IMG/VR virus record: IMGVR_UViG_3300048586_000886
Span: 1-38,175 of that record
Length of the DNA stretch: 38,175 nucleotides
Source of the DNA: a virus
Reading direction: 5' to 3' (one strand)
The notes beneath the pieces are model-generated. The model did not search any database. It was not told the origin of the DNA and saw only the letters and a program-made list of their open reading frames with translations. This document shows positions 6,181 through 32,120 of this stretch, one piece after another (the first letter of the stretch is position 1; each line of letters opens with the position of its first letter). The position numbers and the translations under genes are program-made.

Positions 6181-6675
6181 TCACTTGCTGTCCCTCGCTT
6201 CTGGCGATGGAGCGGGCAGAGCGGGCGCGCTGGGAGGCCGCCGCTGACCCATGCGAAAAAGCGCGCCTTCAAGCGCAGCTGGAAAATGTTCGGCAAGCAC
6301 TCGCGCGAGTGAATCCCCATCACCCGCTGGCAGGTCGGCCTGTTCAAGAATCGCTTGGAACGCCTCGGCCAATACGTCTGCACTAGGCAGTGTCACAGGC
6401 AGAAGAACGGTTGGCTGCTGATTTCCAGACAGATCGACTGGCTCGCCAGTTATCCCGGCGAGAGCTAGCACCTTGGCCGGATCAACGCCGCGTTTAGAAT
6501 AAATTTGCGCGAGACGTGTTGCATAAGTCACCGGCAGAAGCGGCCCCTTGAATTTGGCCGGATCCTCCTTCGACGCATAGGTGGTCTTCGCCACGCCAAG
6601 TGCCTGCGCGACTTCTGGCTGGCTCATCCCGGCTTCTTCACGAAGTCGCTTCAGCTTGGCGTTAATCGTCTCCAC
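6181..6675 (-). CDS. CI-like phage repressor, HTH_XRE type, no peptidase domain
   Basis: A 164-residue repressor. The N-terminal domain is a helix-turn-helix of the XRE/Cro-CI class (LKRLREEAGMSQPEVAQALGVAKTTYASKE, about residues 8-36). The remainder (about residues 70-164) is helical and Pro/Ala-rich, with no S24 LexA-type Ser/Lys protease motifs visible, so RecA-driven self-cleavage is not expected. I chose the GTG at 6675 because AGGA lies 8-12 nt upstream and because the ATG at 6765 would place all three operators inside the gene. Operator A lies just upstream of this start, so autoregulation is likely. It would hold lysogeny by binding the five 17-bp operators. Confidence 0.85.
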   Translation of the reverse strand: METINAKLKRLREEAGMSQPEVAQALGVAKTTYASKEDPAKFKGPLLPVTYATRLAQIYSKRGVDPAKVLALAGITGEPVDLSGNQQPTVLLPVTLPSADVLAEAFQAILEQADLPAGDGDSLARVLAEHFPAALEGALFRMGQRRPPSAPALPAPSPEARDSK

Positions 6676-6687
6676 GCCGAGAGTCCT

Positions 6688-6751
6688 ATACGAAAAAGTC
6701 GCACCCGCGGGATACGATTTTATCGTTGCAAGAGATACGAAAAGTTCGTAG
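6688..6751. promoter_or_regulatory. Immunity operators OA, OB, OC between repressor and Cro-like gene
   Basis: Three copies of a 17-bp motif with 6-5-6 geometry: ATACGA-AAAAG-TCGCAC (6688-6704), ATACGA-TTTTA-TCGTTG (6712-6728) and ATACGA-AAAGT-TCGTAG (6735-6751). Every left arm is exactly ATACGA. Centre spacings of 24 and 23 bp mimic the three-site lambda OR. A rightward promoter fits TTGCAA (6726-6731) and TAGTTC (6749-6754) with a 17-bp spacer. That puts the start point a few bases before the Cro-like ATG, with operators B and C overlapping the promoter. Confidence 0.8.
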
Positions 6752-6763
6752 TTCTCGGTTGTC

Positions 6764-7195
6764 ATGCATCAGCCAGTCACACTGTTCGATCATTTCGGCG
6801 GCGTTCGCCGCCTTGCCATGGAGCTGGGCGAACCACTCACTACAGTGCAAAGCTGGAAGTCGGCTGGCCGTATTCCGGCAGCCAAGCAGCCATCTGTGCT
6901 GGCGGCGGCCAAGCGTCTCCGCCTCTCAGTTAGGGCGGAAGATATCATCTTCCCGATGGGGGGTGAGGGTTCGGGCCAAGCGGGCGAGGGAGCTGCTGGT
7001 TGCGCCCCCGCCCGCGGTCTTTCATCGGACGGGCCGGAAACGGCCAACCCTGACGCCGATACGCCCGCCGATCCTGATGTGCTGCCCCAGCTGCCCATGG
7101 GGGGCGAGGATGCCGCGGCGGCGGCCGACTGTCAGCGGGAAACGGCGGCTGCCGTTCCCGCCGCCGAACCCTTCAACCCCGGAAAGGCCGCCTGA
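6764..7195 (+). CDS. Cro-like regulator with carph-isopro-type HTH
   Basis: A 143-residue protein, divergent from the repressor. Residues 8-55 (LFDHFGGVRRLAMELGEPLTTVQSWKSAGRIPAAKQPSVLAAAKRL) are a short helix-turn-helix of the YdaS/carph-isopro kind typical of Cro-position genes in alphaproteobacterial phages. The C-terminal 85 residues are disordered, rich in Ala/Gly/Pro/Glu. No ribosome site precedes the ATG and the predicted promoter ends almost on it, so the message may be leaderless. It starts the rightward early operon. Role inferred: competes with the repressor for the operators. Confidence 0.8.
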   Translation: MHQPVTLFDHFGGVRRLAMELGEPLTTVQSWKSAGRIPAAKQPSVLAAAKRLRLSVRAEDIIFPMGGEGSGQAGEGAAGCAPARGLSSDGPETANPDADTPADPDVLPQLPMGGEDAAAAADCQRETAAAVPAAEPFNPGKAA

Positions 7196-9802: not shown

Positions 9803-10011
9803 GCCGGGCCCTGCCAGCGCCGGGGCTGCCGGAACGGCTGCGGGACGGCGCCGCCAGCGAGGAGGACCGCAGCTGGGCCGTGCGCCGGCTGGGCGTGCTG
9901 GAAGAAATGGTGCCGCTGGGCCTGAGCCGGGAACAGGAATGGGAATTGTTCGGCCTGCGGCTGCTGCTGAAGGCCGCGGCCTCTGCCGACAGTGAAGAGG
10001 GGGCCGACTGA
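9799..10011 (+). CDS. Small helical early protein, 70 aa
   Basis: A 70-residue, mostly helical protein ([17 protein letters not shown]..., then [33 protein letters not shown]). Start and stop overlap adjacent genes (ATGA and TGATG), the stop directly on the SSB start. Function unknown; translational coupling to SSB suggests a replication-module role. Confidence 0.55.
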
Positions 10012-10487
10012 TGGCTGGCAGCGTGAACAAGGTGATCCTGATCGGCCATCTGGGGGCCGACCCCGAGGTGAAGAGCTTCCCATCCGGCGGGCAGGTGGCG
10101 AACTTTCGGCTGGCGACCAGCGAAAGCTGGACGGACCGCGCCACCAACGCGCGCAAGGAACGCACCGAGTGGCATTCGGTGGTGGTGACGAACGAAGCGC
10201 TGGTGAGCGTGGTGCAGAAGTATCTGCGAAAGGGCAGCAAGGCCTATGTCGAGGGCCAGCTGCGCACCCGCAAGTGGCAGGATCGCGACGGGCAGGATCG
10301 CTACACCACCGAAGTGGTGGTGGGCGGCTATCGCGGGCAGCTGGTGCTTCTAGACCGGGCCGAGGGCGGGCCGGGCCGCGCCGGGGCGGGTTCCGCCGCC
10401 GATTACGAAGGGCCGGGCAGCGGCGCCGCGCCCCCGGCCGGCGGGCAGGGCGGCTTCCACGACCTGGATGATGACGTGCCCTTTTGA
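10011..10487 (+). CDS. ssb: Single-stranded DNA-binding protein
   Basis: A 158-residue SSB. The OB fold covers about residues 1-110 and carries the family pattern [16 protein letters not shown], then [38 protein letters not shown] and YTTEVVV. A Gly/Ala-rich linker follows, and the protein ends with the acidic tip DLDDDVPF, the element that recruits partner proteins in bacterial SSBs. It would coat the template during phage replication and lies directly before the primase-helicase gene. Length and ends are normal for the family. Confidence 0.96.
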
Positions 10488-10592: not shown

Positions 10593-13568
10593 ATGAGCGA
10601 CAGCCCGATCCTTCAGGCGGCGCTGGCCTATGCCACCAAGGGCTGGCCGGTGTTTCCATGCCGGGCCGACACCAAGGCGCCGCTGATCAAGGCCTGGCAG
10701 CGCAATGCCAGCACCGATGCCGCGCAGATCCGCAACTGGTGGGGCAGCTGGCCCGCCGCGATGATCGGGTTGCCGCTGGGCGGCGCCACGGGCCTGTTCG
10801 CGCTGGATTTCGACCCGCGCCAGGAGATCGACGGGGAAACCGGCGAAGTCACGCAGTTCACCTATGCCCAGCTGAAGGCCGAGACCGAGGCCATGATCGG
10901 CGGCGAGCTTCCGCCAACCGCCGCGAGCCGGACGCCATCCGGCGGGTTCCACATCTTCTATCGTCAGCCGGCGGATTCCGGCGGCGAGATCCGCAATCGG
11001 GGCAACCTGCCGGCGCATGTGGATGTGCGAGGGCAGGGCGGCTATGTGATCGCGCCGCCCTCGGTTCGGGCCGACGGCGCCGCCTACCGTTGGGTGGAGC
11101 GGCGCGACCCGCAGGCCTGCCCGCCGGCCGAAGCCCCGGCCGCGCTGATCGAGCTGCTGCGCGCCGGCAAATCGGCCCCGGCCGGACCGGCCAGGGAACT
11201 CACCGAATCCGGCAATGGTGCCAACGGGATATGGGTGGCCGGGGCCGCGAAGGGACTCAGCGCCAGCGAGGCCGTGCGCCGCTATGGCCTGTCCGCGCTG
11301 GATGCGGAGGCTGAGGCGCTGCGGCGGATGGGGCGCGGCGGCCGGAACAAGGCGCTGAACATCGCGGCCGTGAAGCTGGGCAGCCTGGTGGCGGCCGGCG
11401 CGCTTTCGGAAGGCGTGGTGCGCGCCGCCCTGCTGGACGCCTGCCACGGCAACGGGCTGGCCGGCGAGGATGGCGCGCGCGCCTGCGAGGCGACGATCGA
11501 CAGCGGGCTGAAGCATGGCCGCGAAAACCCGCGCGACCTGCGCGACATCGAGGCCGAGGCGGAGCGCCGCGCCGGCCGCGTGGGAGGCCCGGCCCGCCGC
11601 CCGGCGGCCGAAGGCCGCGCAACGGGCGGGGCAGCGGGCCGAACGTCGGCGCCGCCGGCGCCGGCCGCATCGTCTGACGAAGGCGCGGCTTCGGCTGCCC
11701 GGCCTCCCGCCCCCTCCGACTGGTCGGACGAATTCAGACCCTCCCATATGGGAGTGGTGCGCAAAAGGGGGCGGCTGTGGGGGCCCCGGGGGGAAGACGG
11801 GCGGCGGCGCTGGGATTGGCAGTGGGCGCGGGAAATCGCCGATGTGGCGCGGCAGCTGCGGTGCATCGGCTTTCCGCTGACTGACTTGGGCAATGCGGAA
11901 CGGTTCGCGGCCCGGCATGGCTGGCGGTTCCGCTATACCGAGATGCGGGGCTGGTTCTGCTGGGATGGCCGGCGCTGGGTGCGCGAGGGGGCCGAAGCCG
12001 CCCTGCTGAAGGCGGCGCAGGATACGGTGCGCGCGATCCAGTGGGAGGCCAAGTTCATCGCCGAGAGTGGCGTGCAGGTTCCGTCCGGCGTTCGTTTCCA
12101 GGACGATGGCGACTTGTCTGCGGTCGGCCGGGCCCTGGAATTCGAAGGGCGGCGGATGGATGATCCAGACGCCCCCGGGCTGGATGAATTCATCGAGTAT
12201 AAGAACGGACGGACGCGCTGCCGTTCCGACCGGCATTCCAGCTGGGGGCGGGCGAGCGAGGCGGCCGGCAAGATCGCGGCGATTCCCCAGCTGCTGAAGG
12301 GCCTGCCGGGCATCACGGTGAAGACCGATGTGTTCGATCGGCACCCGATGGTGTTCAACGTGCTGAACGGCGCGCTGCATTTCGAGCGCGGGCCGGATGG
12401 CCCCCGCCTGGTGAAGCGGCGGCACGACCCCGAGCTGCTGCTGACGAAGCTGGCCGCGGTGATTTACGACCCGCGCGCGGACTGCCCGGTTTATGACGCC
12501 TTCCTGGGCCGGGTGCAGCCCGACCCCGAGATCCGCCGCTTCCTGCACGCCTGGGCCGGTTACAACCTGACCGGCGACGTGGGCCAGCAATGCTTCGTGA
12601 TCCTGCACGGCGCGAAGGGCGCCAACGGGAAGAGCACCTGGGAGAAGCTGCGCAGCGACCTGATGGGCGACTATTCGCTGTCGGTGAAGATCGAGACCTT
12701 CCTGAACAGCGACAAGAAGGGCAGCGGCACCGAGGCCAGCCCGGATATCGCCCGGCTGCCGGGCGCGCGGCATGTGCAGACATCGGAGCCCGGGCAGCAG
12801 GCGGCCTTCGCCGAAGACCTGATCAAGGTGGTGACGGGCAGCGAGCGGATGGTCGCGCGGCAGCTGCACAAGGAATTCTTCGAGTTCGATCCGCAGTTCA
12901 AGATCACGGTGCAGTGCAACCGGGAGCCGAAGGCGAGCGATGATCCGGCCTTCTGGCGCCGGGTGAAGAAGGTGCCGTTCGACGTTTCGATCCCCGAGCC
13001 CGAGCGCGACGAGCTGCTGGGGCAGAAGATGCTGGCCGAGGCGAGCGGCATTCTGAACCACTTCATCGCCGGCGCGCTGGACTGGATGGCGGGCGGGCTG
13101 CCGACGGTGGAACGCATCGTGCAGGCCACCGCCGCCTATCGCGAGCGCAGCGACACGCTGGGCAGCTTCCTGAGGGCCGCCACGCGGCCGGAAGAGGGCG
13201 CGACGGTGGGAAGCCACGAGCTGTACACGGTTTACTGCGCCTGGTGCGTCTTCGCGGGCGAAAAGGCGTGGACCCAGAAGGGCTTCAGCAACGCGCTGAA
13301 CGGCGCCGGGTTCGAGAAGGTGAAGGCCAGCAGCATGCGCTGGCAGGGCCTGCGCCTGACCCGCGACGCCGATGCCTTCGTGATCCGCGACCATGTCGGC
13401 GACGGCAAGTTCCATGAGCGCCCGCGGGAGGAAATGGGCCCCGAGATCGAAGGGCTGCCGGCCGTGGCCGAGGGGGGGTCGGCCGCGCGGGAGGGTGATG
13501 TTCCCAACCCTCCCGCTGGGGCTGTTCCGCCGGAACTGGATGAGAAGGACTGGCCCGATGCGTGGTGA
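10593..13568 (+). CDS. PrimPol-D5 primase/helicase (phage/plasmid primase, P4 family)
   Basis: A 991-residue replication protein. The N-terminal bifunctional primase-polymerase domain (about residues 8-190) shows the family start ALAYATKGWPVFPC, the catalytic acidic segment LFALDFDPR, and PSGGFHIFY. A disordered Ala/Pro/Arg linker follows (about residues 300-380). The C-terminal half carries the D5_N and superfamily-3 helicase domains, with Walker A GAKGANGKST (G673 to T682, Lys680), and DIARLPGARHVQTSEPG and ITVQCNREPK downstream. It should prime and unwind the phage origin. P4 alpha, the model of the family, binds short iterons at its origin, and a dense repeat field overlaps the 3' end of this gene. 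ATG 10593 is preceded by GGGAGAG. Confidence 0.93.
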   Translation: MSDSPILQAALAYATKGWPVFPCRADTKAPLIKAWQRNASTDAAQIRNWWGSWPAAMIGLPLGGATGLFALDFDPRQEIDGETGEVTQFTYAQLKAETEAMIGGELPPTAASRTPSGGFHIFYRQPADSGGEIRNRGNLPAHVDVRGQGGYVIAPPSVRADGAAYRWVERRDPQACPPAEAPAALIELLRAGKSAPAGPARELTESGNGANGIWVAGAAKGLSASEAVRRYGLSALDAEAEALRRMGRGGRNKALNIAAVKLGSLVAAGALSEGVVRAALLDACHGNGLAGEDGARACEATIDSGLKHGRENPRDLRDIEAEAERRAGRVGGPARRPAAEGRATGGAAGRTSAPPAPAASSDEGAASAARPPAPSDWSDEFRPSHMGVVRKRGRLWGPRGEDGRRRWDWQWAREIADVARQLRCIGFPLTDLGNAERFAARHGWRFRYTEMRGWFCWDGRRWVREGAEAALLKAAQDTVRAIQWEAKFIAESGVQVPSGVRFQDDGDLSAVGRALEFEGRRMDDPDAPGLDEFIEYKNGRTRCRSDRHSSWGRASEAAGKIAAIPQLLKGLPGITVKTDVFDRHPMVFNVLNGALHFERGPDGPRLVKRRHDPELLLTKLAAVIYDPRADCPVYDAFLGRVQPDPEIRRFLHAWAGYNLTGDVGQQCFVILHGAKGANGKSTWEKLRSDLMGDYSLSVKIETFLNSDKKGSGTEASPDIARLPGARHVQTSEPGQQAAFAEDLIKVVTGSERMVARQLHKEFFEFDPQFKITVQCNREPKASDDPAFWRRVKKVPFDVSIPEPERDELLGQKMLAEASGILNHFIAGALDWMAGGLPTVERIVQATAAYRERSDTLGSFLRAATRPEEGATVGSHELYTVYCAWCVFAGEKAWTQKGFSNALNGAGFEKVKASSMRWQGLRLTRDADAFVIRDHVGDGKFHERPREEMGPEIEGLPAVAEGGSAAREGDVPNPPAGAVPPELDEKDWPDAW
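11739..11754. repeat. Palindrome carrying one iteron core inside the primase gene
   Basis: CTCCCATATGGGAG (11741-11754) is a perfect 14-bp palindrome, and its left arm is part of CCCTCCC (11739-11745), the same 7-mer that is repeated 12 times at 13489-13892. It lies in the region coding for the end of the disordered linker before the helicase half. It may be an outlying binding site for the replication protein. Confidence 0.4.
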
Positions 13569-13892
13569 TTTCGCCGCCAACCCTCCCGCTATGGGAGGGT
13601 TGGGAGGGTTACGGGAGGTTTGTTCCGGGCGCGCGCGGGAGGGTCAGCCCAAGGGGGAAGTGCGCCAATGGGAGGGTTGGGAGGGTTTCGGCACCTTTTT
13701 CCGGTTCATGTGCGTGCGCGTGCGGGCGCGGGCGCGCATGAGCCTAATATCTTCATAACCCTCCCGTTCCTCCCGTCCCTCCCGTCGACAACATTCCAAG
13801 GTAAGGAATAGATAATGAAAACAGGGCTTAAGATAGAGGCTGGCTTTACGGGAGGGTTGATCCGGGCGGAAATGGCGTCTCCCGTCCCTCCC
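13487..13892. repeat. Iteron field of GGGAGGG/CCCTCCC, probable phage replication origin
   Basis: Twelve exact copies of GGGAGGG or its complement start at 13489, 13508, 13581, 13593, 13602, 13637, 13670, 13679, 13759, 13777, 13850 and 13886, with imperfect copies at 13613 and 13769. They form inverted repeats: 10-bp arms 13487-13496/13507-13516 and the 23-bp AACCCTCCC-GCTAT-GGGAGGGTT at 13579-13601. A 20-bp unit is repeated at 13591-13610 and 13668-13687 and contains a perfect G-quadruplex motif (GGGAGGGTTGGGAGGG). The field spans the 3' end of the primase-helicase gene, the gene-free gap 13569-13814 and the start of the next gene. That is where iterons of P4-type replicons are expected. Confidence 0.7.
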
Positions 13893-14336
13893 GTGCCGGG
13901 CGAGGGCGGCGAGCTGATCGATTTCGTGAGCGTCGAGGCGCGCCTGGTGGAAGCGTTCGACGTGCTGCGCCGCCTGCCGGATCCCGAGCGGCGGTTCCTG
14001 CGGACGCGCACCATGGGCCTGTGGGCGGAGGTGCGGCCGGAGCGGGTGGATATCGACGGCGAGGGGCAGGAAGCCCGCCCGGGCGTGACGCGCGGCGAGC
14101 TGCGGCGGATGGAAGAGGCGCTTGGCTGGTGCGAATGGCTGGACGGCCCGGCCCGCAAGCTGGTGGGCGCCACCATCAGCAGCCTGCGGGAGGCCGACCA
14201 GCAGCCGAACTGGCCGCACATCCGCCGCATCCTGGGCGAAACCCGCACCACGGACGCCCTGCGGATGGCCTATGGCCGCGCACTTTCGCGAATTTGCGGG
14301 AAGCTAAACGCCGGTTCTGGCAGGGCTTTTGGATAG
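13815..14336 (+). CDS. DUF6362-like phage protein
   Basis: A 173-residue protein. Residues about 36-150 (FVSVEARLVEAFDVLRRLPDPERRF..., then RRMEEALGWCEWLDGPARKLV and ending LRMAYGRALSRICGKLN) match my memory of the DUF6362 family, common in alphaproteobacterial prophages between replication and packaging genes. The C-terminal part has a sigma-factor-like helix-turn-helix feel (PHIRRILGETRTTDALRMAYGRAL). It may be a late-gene regulator, inferred only from this and position. ATG 13815 follows AAGGAATAGATA. Its first 80 bp contain two of the GGGAGGG iterons, so part of the origin field is coding. Confidence 0.65.
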   Translation: MKTGLKIEAGFTGGLIRAEMASPVPPVPGEGGELIDFVSVEARLVEAFDVLRRLPDPERRFLRTRTMGLWAEVRPERVDIDGEGQEARPGVTRGELRRMEEALGWCEWLDGPARKLVGATISSLREADQQPNWPHIRRILGETRTTDALRMAYGRALSRICGKLNAGSGRAFG

Positions 14337-29054: not shown

Positions 29055-32000
29055 GTGAACAATCAGGCCACCATCAATGCCAGGTTGCAAGTCAACACTT
29101 CGGAATTCGATGAGAAGACAAAGCGCTCCCTTGATGTGTTCAAAACCCGGGCCAGTCAGGCCGGGGATGAGGCTGCCGTGAGCCTTAGCGGCGGAATCGA
29201 TGGATTCACGACCAGTTTCCCCTCGAAGCTTGGCAAGGCGGAGGCGGGGCTTGCGGCCTTTCGAGGTGCGGCCGTTGCGGCCGGCGCGGGGATCGGTGTT
29301 GTCGCTGGTGCGACCTACGAATTCGTCCGAATGGCGGGTCAGTTCGCGGATGATCTGTCCACTGCGGCCGAGCAGGCGAACATCAATGTGGAGCGGTATC
29401 AGACCCTGACGGAGGGTCTGCGCAAGCTGGAGATTTCCGGGAATCAGGCAGATCAGATCTTCCGCAGGCTGACCAATACCCTGGGGGAAGTGCAGGGCGG
29501 AACAGCTGCGAAGGGGGTGGAAGCGGCGCTGGACAAGATGGGCGTCAAGGCGCGCATCCTTTCCGGCGAAATCGAGACGACGGACCAGCTGTTCGATGCG
29601 ATCGCGGCGAGCGCCGGGCGATTCGGCACCGAGGCGGAGTATACGGCCAGTGTCGTTGATGTTGTTGGTCGCGGGGTCGGTGTTCAACTGGCGGCGGCGC
29701 TGCGCGATGGCGGGGATGCCCTGCGTGAGCAGGAAGAGGCTTTCCGGGCTGCTGGCGCTGTGATCGAGGAGGATTATATCCGCCGTCTGGCCGACGCGAA
29801 CGAGAAAATCGACGCGTTCACTAGCCGGCTGAAGGGGCTGGCCGTTCAGTCCGCCGGTTTCGTTCTCACCGTTGTTGAGGATACATCCGACGCGATTTCC
29901 GAAATGGTCCGGGATGCGTTGAATGCGCTGGACCGGCTGGCTGGCGTTGGGCCATCTGTCTCCGCAGCCGCCACGATGAAGCCGAACCGCGATCGGGAGC
30001 TTTCCGCCATCAGCGCGCTGCCGGCCGGTTCCGATGCCCGCCGGCAGCTGGAAGCCCGCTATTATCAGACCTTCGGTGAAAGTGCGCCTGAAGGCGATAT
30101 CGTGGTGACTGGGAAGAGGTGGACGAAAGACGATGCGCGGGCAGAGGCTGAAGCGAAGCGCGAGGCGGCGAAGCTGGCCCGGGAACAAGCGGATGCCGAA
30201 CGCAAGGCGGCGGCGGCCCAGCGCGAGGCAGCCTCTGCCGCGAAGGCGCTGGCTGGCGAAAACGACCGGCTGGCGCGCACATATGGCAACATCACCGGCC
30301 CGTCGGCGGCCTATGAGAAGACCCTTGCCGAAATCGCGACGGCCGAACAGCGCGGGCTGCTGACCACGCGGGAGGTGATCGATGCCAGGATCGCCGCCTG
30401 GGAGAAGCTGGAAGAGGCGCAGCGGCGCGTGCTGGATGCGGAGCTGAAGGCGGGCGGTTCCACCCTTTCGGCGGCGAACGACAATGTGCTGAGCTGGCGT
30501 ACATCTTCCGACGATCAGGGCCTTGAGGCCAGCGTGAACCGGCTGCTGGAACGGGCCGGCTTCGGTGTCGAGAAGGTGGCCGACAGGTTCGAGAGCGAGG
30601 GGATCAAGGCCGCCCAGGCCATCGCGCAGATTTTCGGCGGGAAGGTGGGTGGCGAAGTATCGAAGATCGCCGGGGTTCTTCGTGGGCTTTCCACGGGGGA
30701 TTTCACCAGCGTGGGCGGAAAAATCGGCGGCGCTGCAACGCTGATCGCCCAGGACAAGGATACGCGAAAAGCCCTGAAGGAAGCCTTCGCCCCCGTGACC
30801 GAGGGGCTGGAAAAAACCTTCGACAACGTTCTTTCCGAGCTGGGGCTGGAGGGATCCAGCGCCGGCGGGCTGGCCTCTGCCGGCCTGGCCGGGTTCGGGA
30901 TCGGCAGTGCGCTGGGCGGCAATCTGGAATCCGGCATCGGCGGGGCTGTGGGTGGCATGGCCGGCAGCGCCATCGGCATGGCCGTGGGCGGCCCGATCGG
31001 GGCCGCGGTGGGTCAGGCGCTGGGATCGGTAATCGGCTCTGGTATCGGCGGGCTGTTCGCCAGCGCGAAGAAGGGCAGCGTCACGCTGGGCAGCAGCGGC
31101 GGGGAAGTGACCGTGGGCGCGGCCACGGGGAACAGCGCTTCGCGGAAGGCCAACGCCAGCGAGCTGGGCGGCAGCGTGGCCGATACGCTGAACAGCATCG
31201 CGAAGGAGCTGGGCGCCGGCATCGGCAGCTTCGCCGTTTCGGTGGGGCAGCGCGATGGCGTGTTCAGCGTGGACCCGACCGGCCGGGGGATGGTTTCCAA
31301 GAAATATGGCGCCGTGCAGTTCGAAACGGCGGAGGAGGCCGCGCGGTTCGCCATTCAGGACGCGATCAAGGATGGCGCCTTCACCGGCCTGACCCAGACG
31401 GTGGTGAATGCCCTGCGGAACGCCAGCACGCTGGAACAGGGGCTGGATGATGCGGTGCTGATCCAGTCTGTCGCGAAGCGGCTGGCGCAGATCGATGATC
31501 CCGTGGGCGCCGCGATCGAGGCGCTGAACGACGAGTTCGAGGATCTGCGCGACACGCTGATCGCGAACGGCGCCACTGTGGCGGAGCTGGCCGATGCGGA
31601 GCGGCTGTACAATGAGGAACGATCCACCCTGCTGAAGGCCAGTATCGCCACCCTGAAGGAATTCCAGAGCAGCCTGAACGTGGGCAGCGGCAGCCCGCTT
31701 TCCCTGACGGATCAGCAGGCGGCGGCGCAGAAGGCGTTCGCGGCCTTCGAATCCGACATTCTGGCCGGGCGCGATATCGACCAGGCGGCCTATACCAAGG
31801 CGGCGCAGGATCTGCTGGACGTGACGCGGCAGATCGATGGCGGCACCGCCGGCTTCTTCGCCCAGTTCGATCGGGTGCAGTCGCTGACGGCGAAGGCGAT
31901 CAGCGACCTGGAGAATGTGGCGGCGATCCGCGAAGGGCCGTTCGCGCAGAAAACGGCGGAATCCACGGCGGCAACGGCGCAGTCCACGGCCGCGCTGCTG

Positions 32001-32120
32001 AACGCGCAGAATACAGCGATTCAGCAGAATGCGCAGATCATCAGCCTGCTGCAGGCGCTGGGTGGCGGCGGCAGCGGATATGATGCCGCCGCGCTGGCCG
32101 GTTTCGTGAGGGCGGCGTGA
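29055..32120 (+). CDS. Tape measure protein
   Basis: A 1021-residue tape measure. The N-terminus (MNNQATINARLQVNTSEFDEKTKRSLDVFK) and the long helical stretches are typical. Hydrophobic Gly/Ala segments at about residues 75-95 (AVAAGAGIGVVAGATYEFV) and 610-680 (a long GIGSALGGNLESGIGGAVGG-type run) could insert in the host membrane during DNA ejection. An Ala/Lys/Arg/Glu-rich coil lies about 355-400. At roughly 0.15 nm per residue, the family rule, the tail would be about 150 nm. GTG 29055 follows GGAG by 8 nt; an ATG at 29041 opens only a 5-codon frame that ends on the GTG. Confidence 0.93.
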   Translation: MNNQATINARLQVNTSEFDEKTKRSLDVFKTRASQAGDEAAVSLSGGIDGFTTSFPSKLGKAEAGLAAFRGAAVAAGAGIGVVAGATYEFVRMAGQFADDLSTAAEQANINVERYQTLTEGLRKLEISGNQADQIFRRLTNTLGEVQGGTAAKGVEAALDKMGVKARILSGEIETTDQLFDAIAASAGRFGTEAEYTASVVDVVGRGVGVQLAAALRDGGDALREQEEAFRAAGAVIEEDYIRRLADANEKIDAFTSRLKGLAVQSAGFVLTVVEDTSDAISEMVRDALNALDRLAGVGPSVSAAATMKPNRDRELSAISALPAGSDARRQLEARYYQTFGESAPEGDIVVTGKRWTKDDARAEAEAKREAAKLAREQADAERKAAAAQREAASAAKALAGENDRLARTYGNITGPSAAYEKTLAEIATAEQRGLLTTREVIDARIAAWEKLEEAQRRVLDAELKAGGSTLSAANDNVLSWRTSSDDQGLEASVNRLLERAGFGVEKVADRFESEGIKAAQAIAQIFGGKVGGEVSKIAGVLRGLSTGDFTSVGGKIGGAATLIAQDKDTRKALKEAFAPVTEGLEKTFDNVLSELGLEGSSAGGLASAGLAGFGIGSALGGNLESGIGGAVGGMAGSAIGMAVGGPIGAAVGQALGSVIGSGIGGLFASAKKGSVTLGSSGGEVTVGAATGNSASRKANASELGGSVADTLNSIAKELGAGIGSFAVSVGQRDGVFSVDPTGRGMVSKKYGAVQFETAEEAARFAIQDAIKDGAFTGLTQTVVNALRNASTLEQGLDDAVLIQSVAKRLAQIDDPVGAAIEALNDEFEDLRDTLIANGATVAELADAERLYNEERSTLLKASIATLKEFQSSLNVGSGSPLSLTDQQAAAQKAFAAFESDILAGRDIDQAAYTKAAQDLLDVTRQIDGGTAGFFAQFDRVQSLTAKAISDLENVAAIREGPFAQKTAESTAATAQSTAALLNAQNTAIQQNAQIISLLQALGGGGSGYDAAALAGFVRAA

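Follow-up and report, generated by a model that had tools for sequence, protein, structure and literature searches.

The primase-helicase gene and its neighbors

By its integrase, terminase, portal and capsid genes, the window (the whole 38,175-base virus record analyzed here) is from a temperate tailed phage. A helix-turn-helix protein is encoded at 6181-6765 (Pfam), and a 1021-aa ORF with no Pfam match lies in the structural gene region, at 29055-32120. The replication module includes a large primase-helicase (Table 1) with Pfam matches to Prim-Pol (PF09250; 2.4e-42) and D5_N (4.4e-17) and a match to PHROG 1156, DNA primase (1.5e-146). A sequence search of solved structures with this protein gave no match, but a fold search matched its helicase half to the ASFV PrimPol and to the SaPI5 primase-helicase, 7ola. 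The initial annotation had called the protein P4-type. This holds for the helicase half, which is of the SF3/D5 type by the D5_N match and the fold match to 7ola. It does not hold for the primase half, which is Prim-Pol (PF09250), whereas P4 alpha has a bacterial-type (Toprim) primase domain (PMC4234260). An AlphaFold2 model of the protein has a mean pLDDT of 88.6 and predicts a winged helix (a strand, two helices and a beta wing) at aa 864-922, where pLDDT exceeds 90; the tail past about aa 933 is of low confidence. The protein encoded downstream matches PHROG 6836 (3e-20) and, below the Pfam cutoff, DUF6362 (1e-5).

Table 1. Coordinates of the primase-helicase gene, its neighbors and the parts of the iteron field
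Feature	Coordinates	Strand	Basis
Single-strand DNA-binding protein (SSB), same replication module	10011..10487	+	Pfam SSB 4.7e-33
Prim-Pol + D5_N/SF3 primase-helicase, presumed initiator, 991 aa	10593..13568	+	Pfam, PHROG
C-terminal winged-helix domain, codons 864-922, presumed iteron reader	13182..13358	+	AlphaFold2, co-variation
Iteron field with 12 exact GGGAGGG copies, presumed origin of replication	13489..13892		Counts; place and layout kept, 121 loci
Two iterons (13489 +, 13508 -) in last primase codons	13489..13514		Both identical in L028
Inverted iteron right behind primase stop	13581..13587	-	Inverted first copies common among relatives
Tandem pair GGGAGGGTTGGGAGGGTT, 9-bp period, quadruplex motif	13593..13610	+	Most frequent spacing is 9 bp (258 pairs)
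Single iteron	13637..13643	+	Exact 7-mer
Second tandem pair GGGAGGGTTGGGAGGGTT	13670..13687	+	Exact 7-mers
Central spacer, 71 bp, with 18-nt alternating purine-pyrimidine run CATGTGCGTGCGCGTGCG	13687..13757		Run mapping
Inverted iterons AACCCTCCC and CCCTCCC, degenerate copy between	13757..13783	-	Sequence
DUF6362-like downstream gene, 173 aa	13815..14336	+	PHROG 6836, Pfam DUF6362
Outer iterons (13850 +, 13886 -) in start of downstream gene	13850..13892		Both identical in L028

A cluster of iterons at the primase 3' end

The initial annotation proposed a probable phage origin at the end of the primase gene, on the strength of twelve clustered 7-mers on both strands. A count on the whole record found exactly 12 copies of GGGAGGG/CCCTCCC within 13489-13892, starting at 13489, 13593, 13602, 13637, 13670, 13679 and 13850 on the + strand and lying at 13508, 13581, 13759, 13777 and 13886 on the - strand. 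Outside the field the 7-mer is found only at the scattered positions 1849, 11739 and 28808. The record-wide total of 15 is not unusual (the shuffle mean is 11.7); the clustering is the unusual feature. Under an order-3 Markov model of the record, 4.2 copies are expected overall, and 300 simulated runs gave a maximum of 2 per 404-bp window. The 9-mer GGGAGGGTT is a better unit than the 7-mer, all 8 of its copies in the record being inside the field. The 20-bp unit ATGGGAGGGTTGGGAGGGTT is indeed duplicated exactly, at 13591 and 13668, and the field does run, as described, from the last ~27 primase codons (stop codon 13566-13568) across the gap and into the first ~26 codons of the next gene (ATG at 13815). 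Single-strand folding of the field is strong (z = -5.4) because of the facing iterons and was not counted as a separate element. An Rfam search gave chance matches only, and a nucleotide search with the field against phage records found no match. The 16-mer GGGAGGGTTGGGAGGG was missing from five related alphaproteobacterial genomes. Iterons also lie within the coding ends of both neighboring genes (13485-13565 and 13846-13895), so that the protein ends VPNPPAG and SPVPPVPG are shaped by the iteron word.

Survey of related primase loci

With the full primase as a single query, neither the viral nor the genome contigs yielded a relative. Profile searches, two on viral contigs and one on genome contigs, yielded 240 loci, and the full survey set was 249 loci with related primases; a 14-row alignment was too diverse to serve as query, but smaller alignments worked. 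The 18-mer GGGAGGGTTGGGAGGGTT is shared by four contigs that lack this primase (L003, L004, L007 and L008); having no tblastn match to it, they were set aside; in L003, L007 and L008 the 18-mer sits in an ORF with HIPKHEREFVIIANKAIQDPRISHTARGILALVLSLP or a close variant.

For 173 of the 243 loci with at least 550 bp of downstream sequence, the most repetitive 600-bp window was centered between -200 and +600 bp relative to the primase stop. The mean array score at the primase 3' end was 6.0, versus 3.9 and 3.8 for control windows of the same loci. An array-score threshold of 5.5, together with removal of near-identical proteins, left 121 non-redundant arrays. About half of the 249 loci fell below the threshold, and some of these may have been missed through an inserted gene, as in Bordetella phage BIP-1 (below). 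The arrays share a layout in which iterons with the G-rich strand forward are followed by a gap of about 70-72 bp and then by iterons with the G-rich strand reverse (>>> spacer <<<). For neighbors on the same strand, the most frequent distance is exactly 9 bp (258 cases). The repeat cluster of the window is directly downstream of the presumed initiator gene, as in SaPI- and SCC-type elements. This comparison of some 250 related loci strongly supports the proposal of a probable phage origin with iterons.

The closest primase, that of L028, is 77% identical over the helicase half, and the same field is present there, so the refuting outcome named in the initial annotation, a field missing beside a near-identical primase, was not seen in this nearest relative. 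Iteron bases are identical at 79/84 positions (94%) between L028 and the window, versus 194/320 (61%) of the other bases of the field (Fisher p = 2e-10); the iterons are thus conserved over their flanks. The best relative among named phages, Microcystis phage Mae-JY28, has repeated GGAAGGRT words at this place instead of GGGAGGG. Rhodobacter, Paracoccus, Pseudanabaena, Aurantimonas and Bacillus phages have differing words at the same place, e.g., GGGACGCAA, GGGCCTGA, GGGGAAGAT, GGGAGGCTA and AAGTAACAA, and the words found across the arrays include GGGAGGAT, GGAAGGAT, GCAAGGGT, GGGACGAT and GGGCTTGA among others.

The iteron word and the primase C-terminal domain

We compared iteron similarity with similarity of the protein parts, using simple similarity measures from which shared ancestry is not fully removable. 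Iteron similarity followed the primase C-terminal domain when the ATPase core was controlled for (partial r 0.333; 0/2000 permutations), versus a partial r of -0.108 for the ATPase core when the C-terminal domain was controlled for. Along the primase the signal was limited to aa 876-990. The C-terminal signal could reflect mere nearness on the DNA, and therefore the equally near downstream gene was used as a control. Its relation to the iteron, with the core controlled, was 0.004, and the C-terminal signal with both core and downstream gene controlled was 0.334 (0/1000 permutations); the control is weakened in that the downstream genes are clearly homologous in just 8% of pairs. By mutual information between protein and iteron columns, the C-terminal domain, with 86 of the 273 columns tested, supplied 15 of the 25 highest-scoring ones, but this is not main evidence since core columns also score high via shared ancestry.

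The primases of phage phi105 (L021) and vB_BteM-A9Y (L025) are mostly 87-100% identical per 60-residue block until the wing, where they diverge. Their iterons are AAGTAACAA for phi105 versus GGGTTAAT for A9Y. Judged from sequence, the pair, with primases differing mainly in the C-terminal wing, is a natural specificity switch. In sum, by these comparisons the iteron word tracks the C-terminal winged helix of the primase, and not the ATPase core or the downstream gene.

The spacer between the facing arrays

The longest alternating purine-pyrimidine run per field has a median of 16 nt, versus a mean of 8.2 in equal-sized windows of the same loci, and in 80 of 121 loci the run of the field is longer than that of every equal-sized window of its own locus. 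The center of the longest run falls between the two facing arrays in 108/117 fields, compared with an expectation of 26% by length; the run in the phi105 spacer, for example, is ATATATATATAC. Spacer G+C is also lower than that of the own locus in 108/117. Both the alternating run and the lower G+C could aid opening, and the alternating run may melt or become Z-DNA.

Comparison with known replication systems

In SaPI origins the iterons are directly downstream of rep and are recognized by the Rep C-terminal domain, and the isolated C-terminal domain of Cch2 binds its iteron region, the putative SCCmec origin (PMC7581432). The window resembles these systems in the pairing of a self-loading helicase initiator (D5-type in SaPI5 and Cch2) with short iterons directly downstream. 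SaPI5 Rep, further, has the same fold as the primase-helicase of the window; recognition by the C-terminal domain is known for SaPI and Cch2 and predicted here. Unlike the present field, the Cch2 iteron is AAGTG, and an SCC element has three iterons, as opposed to up to 12 in facing arrays. Also unlike SaPI and SCC elements, the window is a high-GC full phage and has an alternating purine-pyrimidine spacer.

P4 likewise uses a primase-helicase initiator, and its crr is directly downstream of alpha. The initial comparison with P4 iterons was apt in layout: the P4 crr has 8-bp type-1 repeats (iteron GGTGAACA), with a 9-bp-spaced pair facing inverted copies, as in the present field. The P4 crr spacer, by inspection, is not an alternating run. 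In the record of Streptococcus phage Sfi21 an annotated origin comes immediately after a related primase gene, with repeated AGTAAC words that are visible in 6-mer counts; the automatic 9-mer finder missed them against the AT-rich background. Sfi21 differs in having an AT-rich spacer and its primase-polymerase part in a separate gene, and the homology is distant only.

pRN1 and phage BIP-1 are like the window in combining Prim-Pol, an SF3 helicase and a winged helix, and in having the origin region on the 3' side of the gene. The proposal made for them was a stem-loop rather than an origin with iterons (PMC4234260). In BIP-1 (L269, AY526909) we found a TTTGCCTCG tandem pair facing an inverted pair, with a 9-bp period, about 466-570 bp past the stop of the replication gene. 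The facing pairs surround CATACGTGTACATG. This array, displaced by ~460 bp from the gene end, is unreported in PMC4234260.

Proposed function of the field

We read the field as the origin that the primase-helicase recognizes, as in SaPI/SCC elements and P4. It is very likely the origin of phage replication, or that part of the origin to which the initiator binds, and the repeats are very probably the landing sites where the primase-helicase starts copying the phage DNA. In the mechanism we propose, the Prim-Pol/D5 primase-helicase, whose gene is just upstream, would bind the 9-bp iterons through its C-terminal winged helix, and the facing arrays would load two helicase rings, one on each side of the ~70-bp spacer. 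The first strand opening would likely occur in the alternating purine-pyrimidine stretch of the spacer, from which the primase-helicase would unwind and prime outward, giving a bidirectional start.

The P4 repeats that alpha binds just past its own gene make up crr, a cis-required region apart from ori; type-1 repeats are present in both ori and crr, and the annotated origin is about 4.5 kb away. The present field could thus be an accessory site, so that the same protein would act here at a crr-like or copy-number (handcuffing) site while forks start elsewhere. We consider this unlikely. There is just one iteron cluster in this record, a possibly incomplete virus contig without host sequence, with no second cluster of GGGAGGGTT; further, the annotated origin of Sfi21 is at exactly the corresponding place, and SaPI origins also lie directly downstream of rep (PMC7581432).

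The initial annotation also singled out the quadruplex motif; a second alternative reading is that the GGGAGGG repeats act through G-quadruplexes, for instance as a structural signal for initiation. The motifs are real: GGGAGGGTTGGGAGGG fits the canonical quadruplex motif at 13593, at 13670 and, on the - strand, near 13779, although eight other places in the record carry a quadruplex motif as well. A canonical motif is present in 8/9 GGGAGGG fields versus 37/112 fields with other iterons and the same layout, which makes the quadruplex potential a by-product of the iteron letters. The motif is not conserved among homologous fields; relatives use different words, most same-layout fields have iterons whose tandem pairs cannot form a quadruplex, and the G runs it requires are missing from, for example, GGAAGGAT and AAGTAACAA. 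Quadruplex use at the origin is not supported by these comparisons, and we regard it as very unlikely. Less credible still is that the repeats are operators for a phage repressor or transcription factor governing the downstream gene, for while iterons flank the start codon of that gene and the record encodes the helix-turn-helix protein mentioned above, iteron identity goes with the C-terminal domain of the primase rather than with that gene, and facing 9-bp arrays of 7-12 copies are not operator-like.

A possible class of phage origins

The kind of origin proposed for the window is already known. What is new is the phage-wide architecture, the natural specificity switches (phi105 versus A9Y), and the alternating core in the stead of an AT-rich element. 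We suggest tentatively, at something short of even confidence, that these fields form a widespread class of phage origin with facing 9-bp arrays, in which an alternating (Z-DNA-prone) core replaces the AT-rich unwinding element in GC-rich genomes and the word is rapidly switched via the C-terminal winged helix. In the open-access part of the literature we found no description of facing 9-bp arrays with an alternating core and a switching word in GC-rich phages. If the proposal is correct, the origins of many temperate phages could be read off the sequence around the 3' ends of their D5 primase genes, and a GC-rich alternating core in the middle of the arrays would run counter to the rule of origin opening at AT-rich DNA.

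In the PLE satellites of Vibrio, the DNA-binding domain of RepA co-varies with ori, and specificity swaps were both observed and tested (PMC8263062). The present loci are similar in that the iterons co-vary with the predicted DNA-binding domain of the presumed initiator. They differ in that the PLE initiator is of the unrelated RepA_N family and that PLE specificity is selected by an origin-directed nuclease. We know of no origin-directed attacking agent for the phages studied here. The rapid turnover of origin specificity would suggest prophage incompatibility or attack on the origin, the latter as shown for the PLE elements. More than 100 initiator/iteron pairs would make up a natural series on how a winged helix reads DNA, with phi105 and A9Y, as closely related switches, being ready test cases for winged-helix specificity. 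Among the iteron words, that of L157, a Bradyrhizobium japonicum contig, is AAGTGTCGG, which starts with AAGTG, the five letters of the SCCmec Cch2 iteron.
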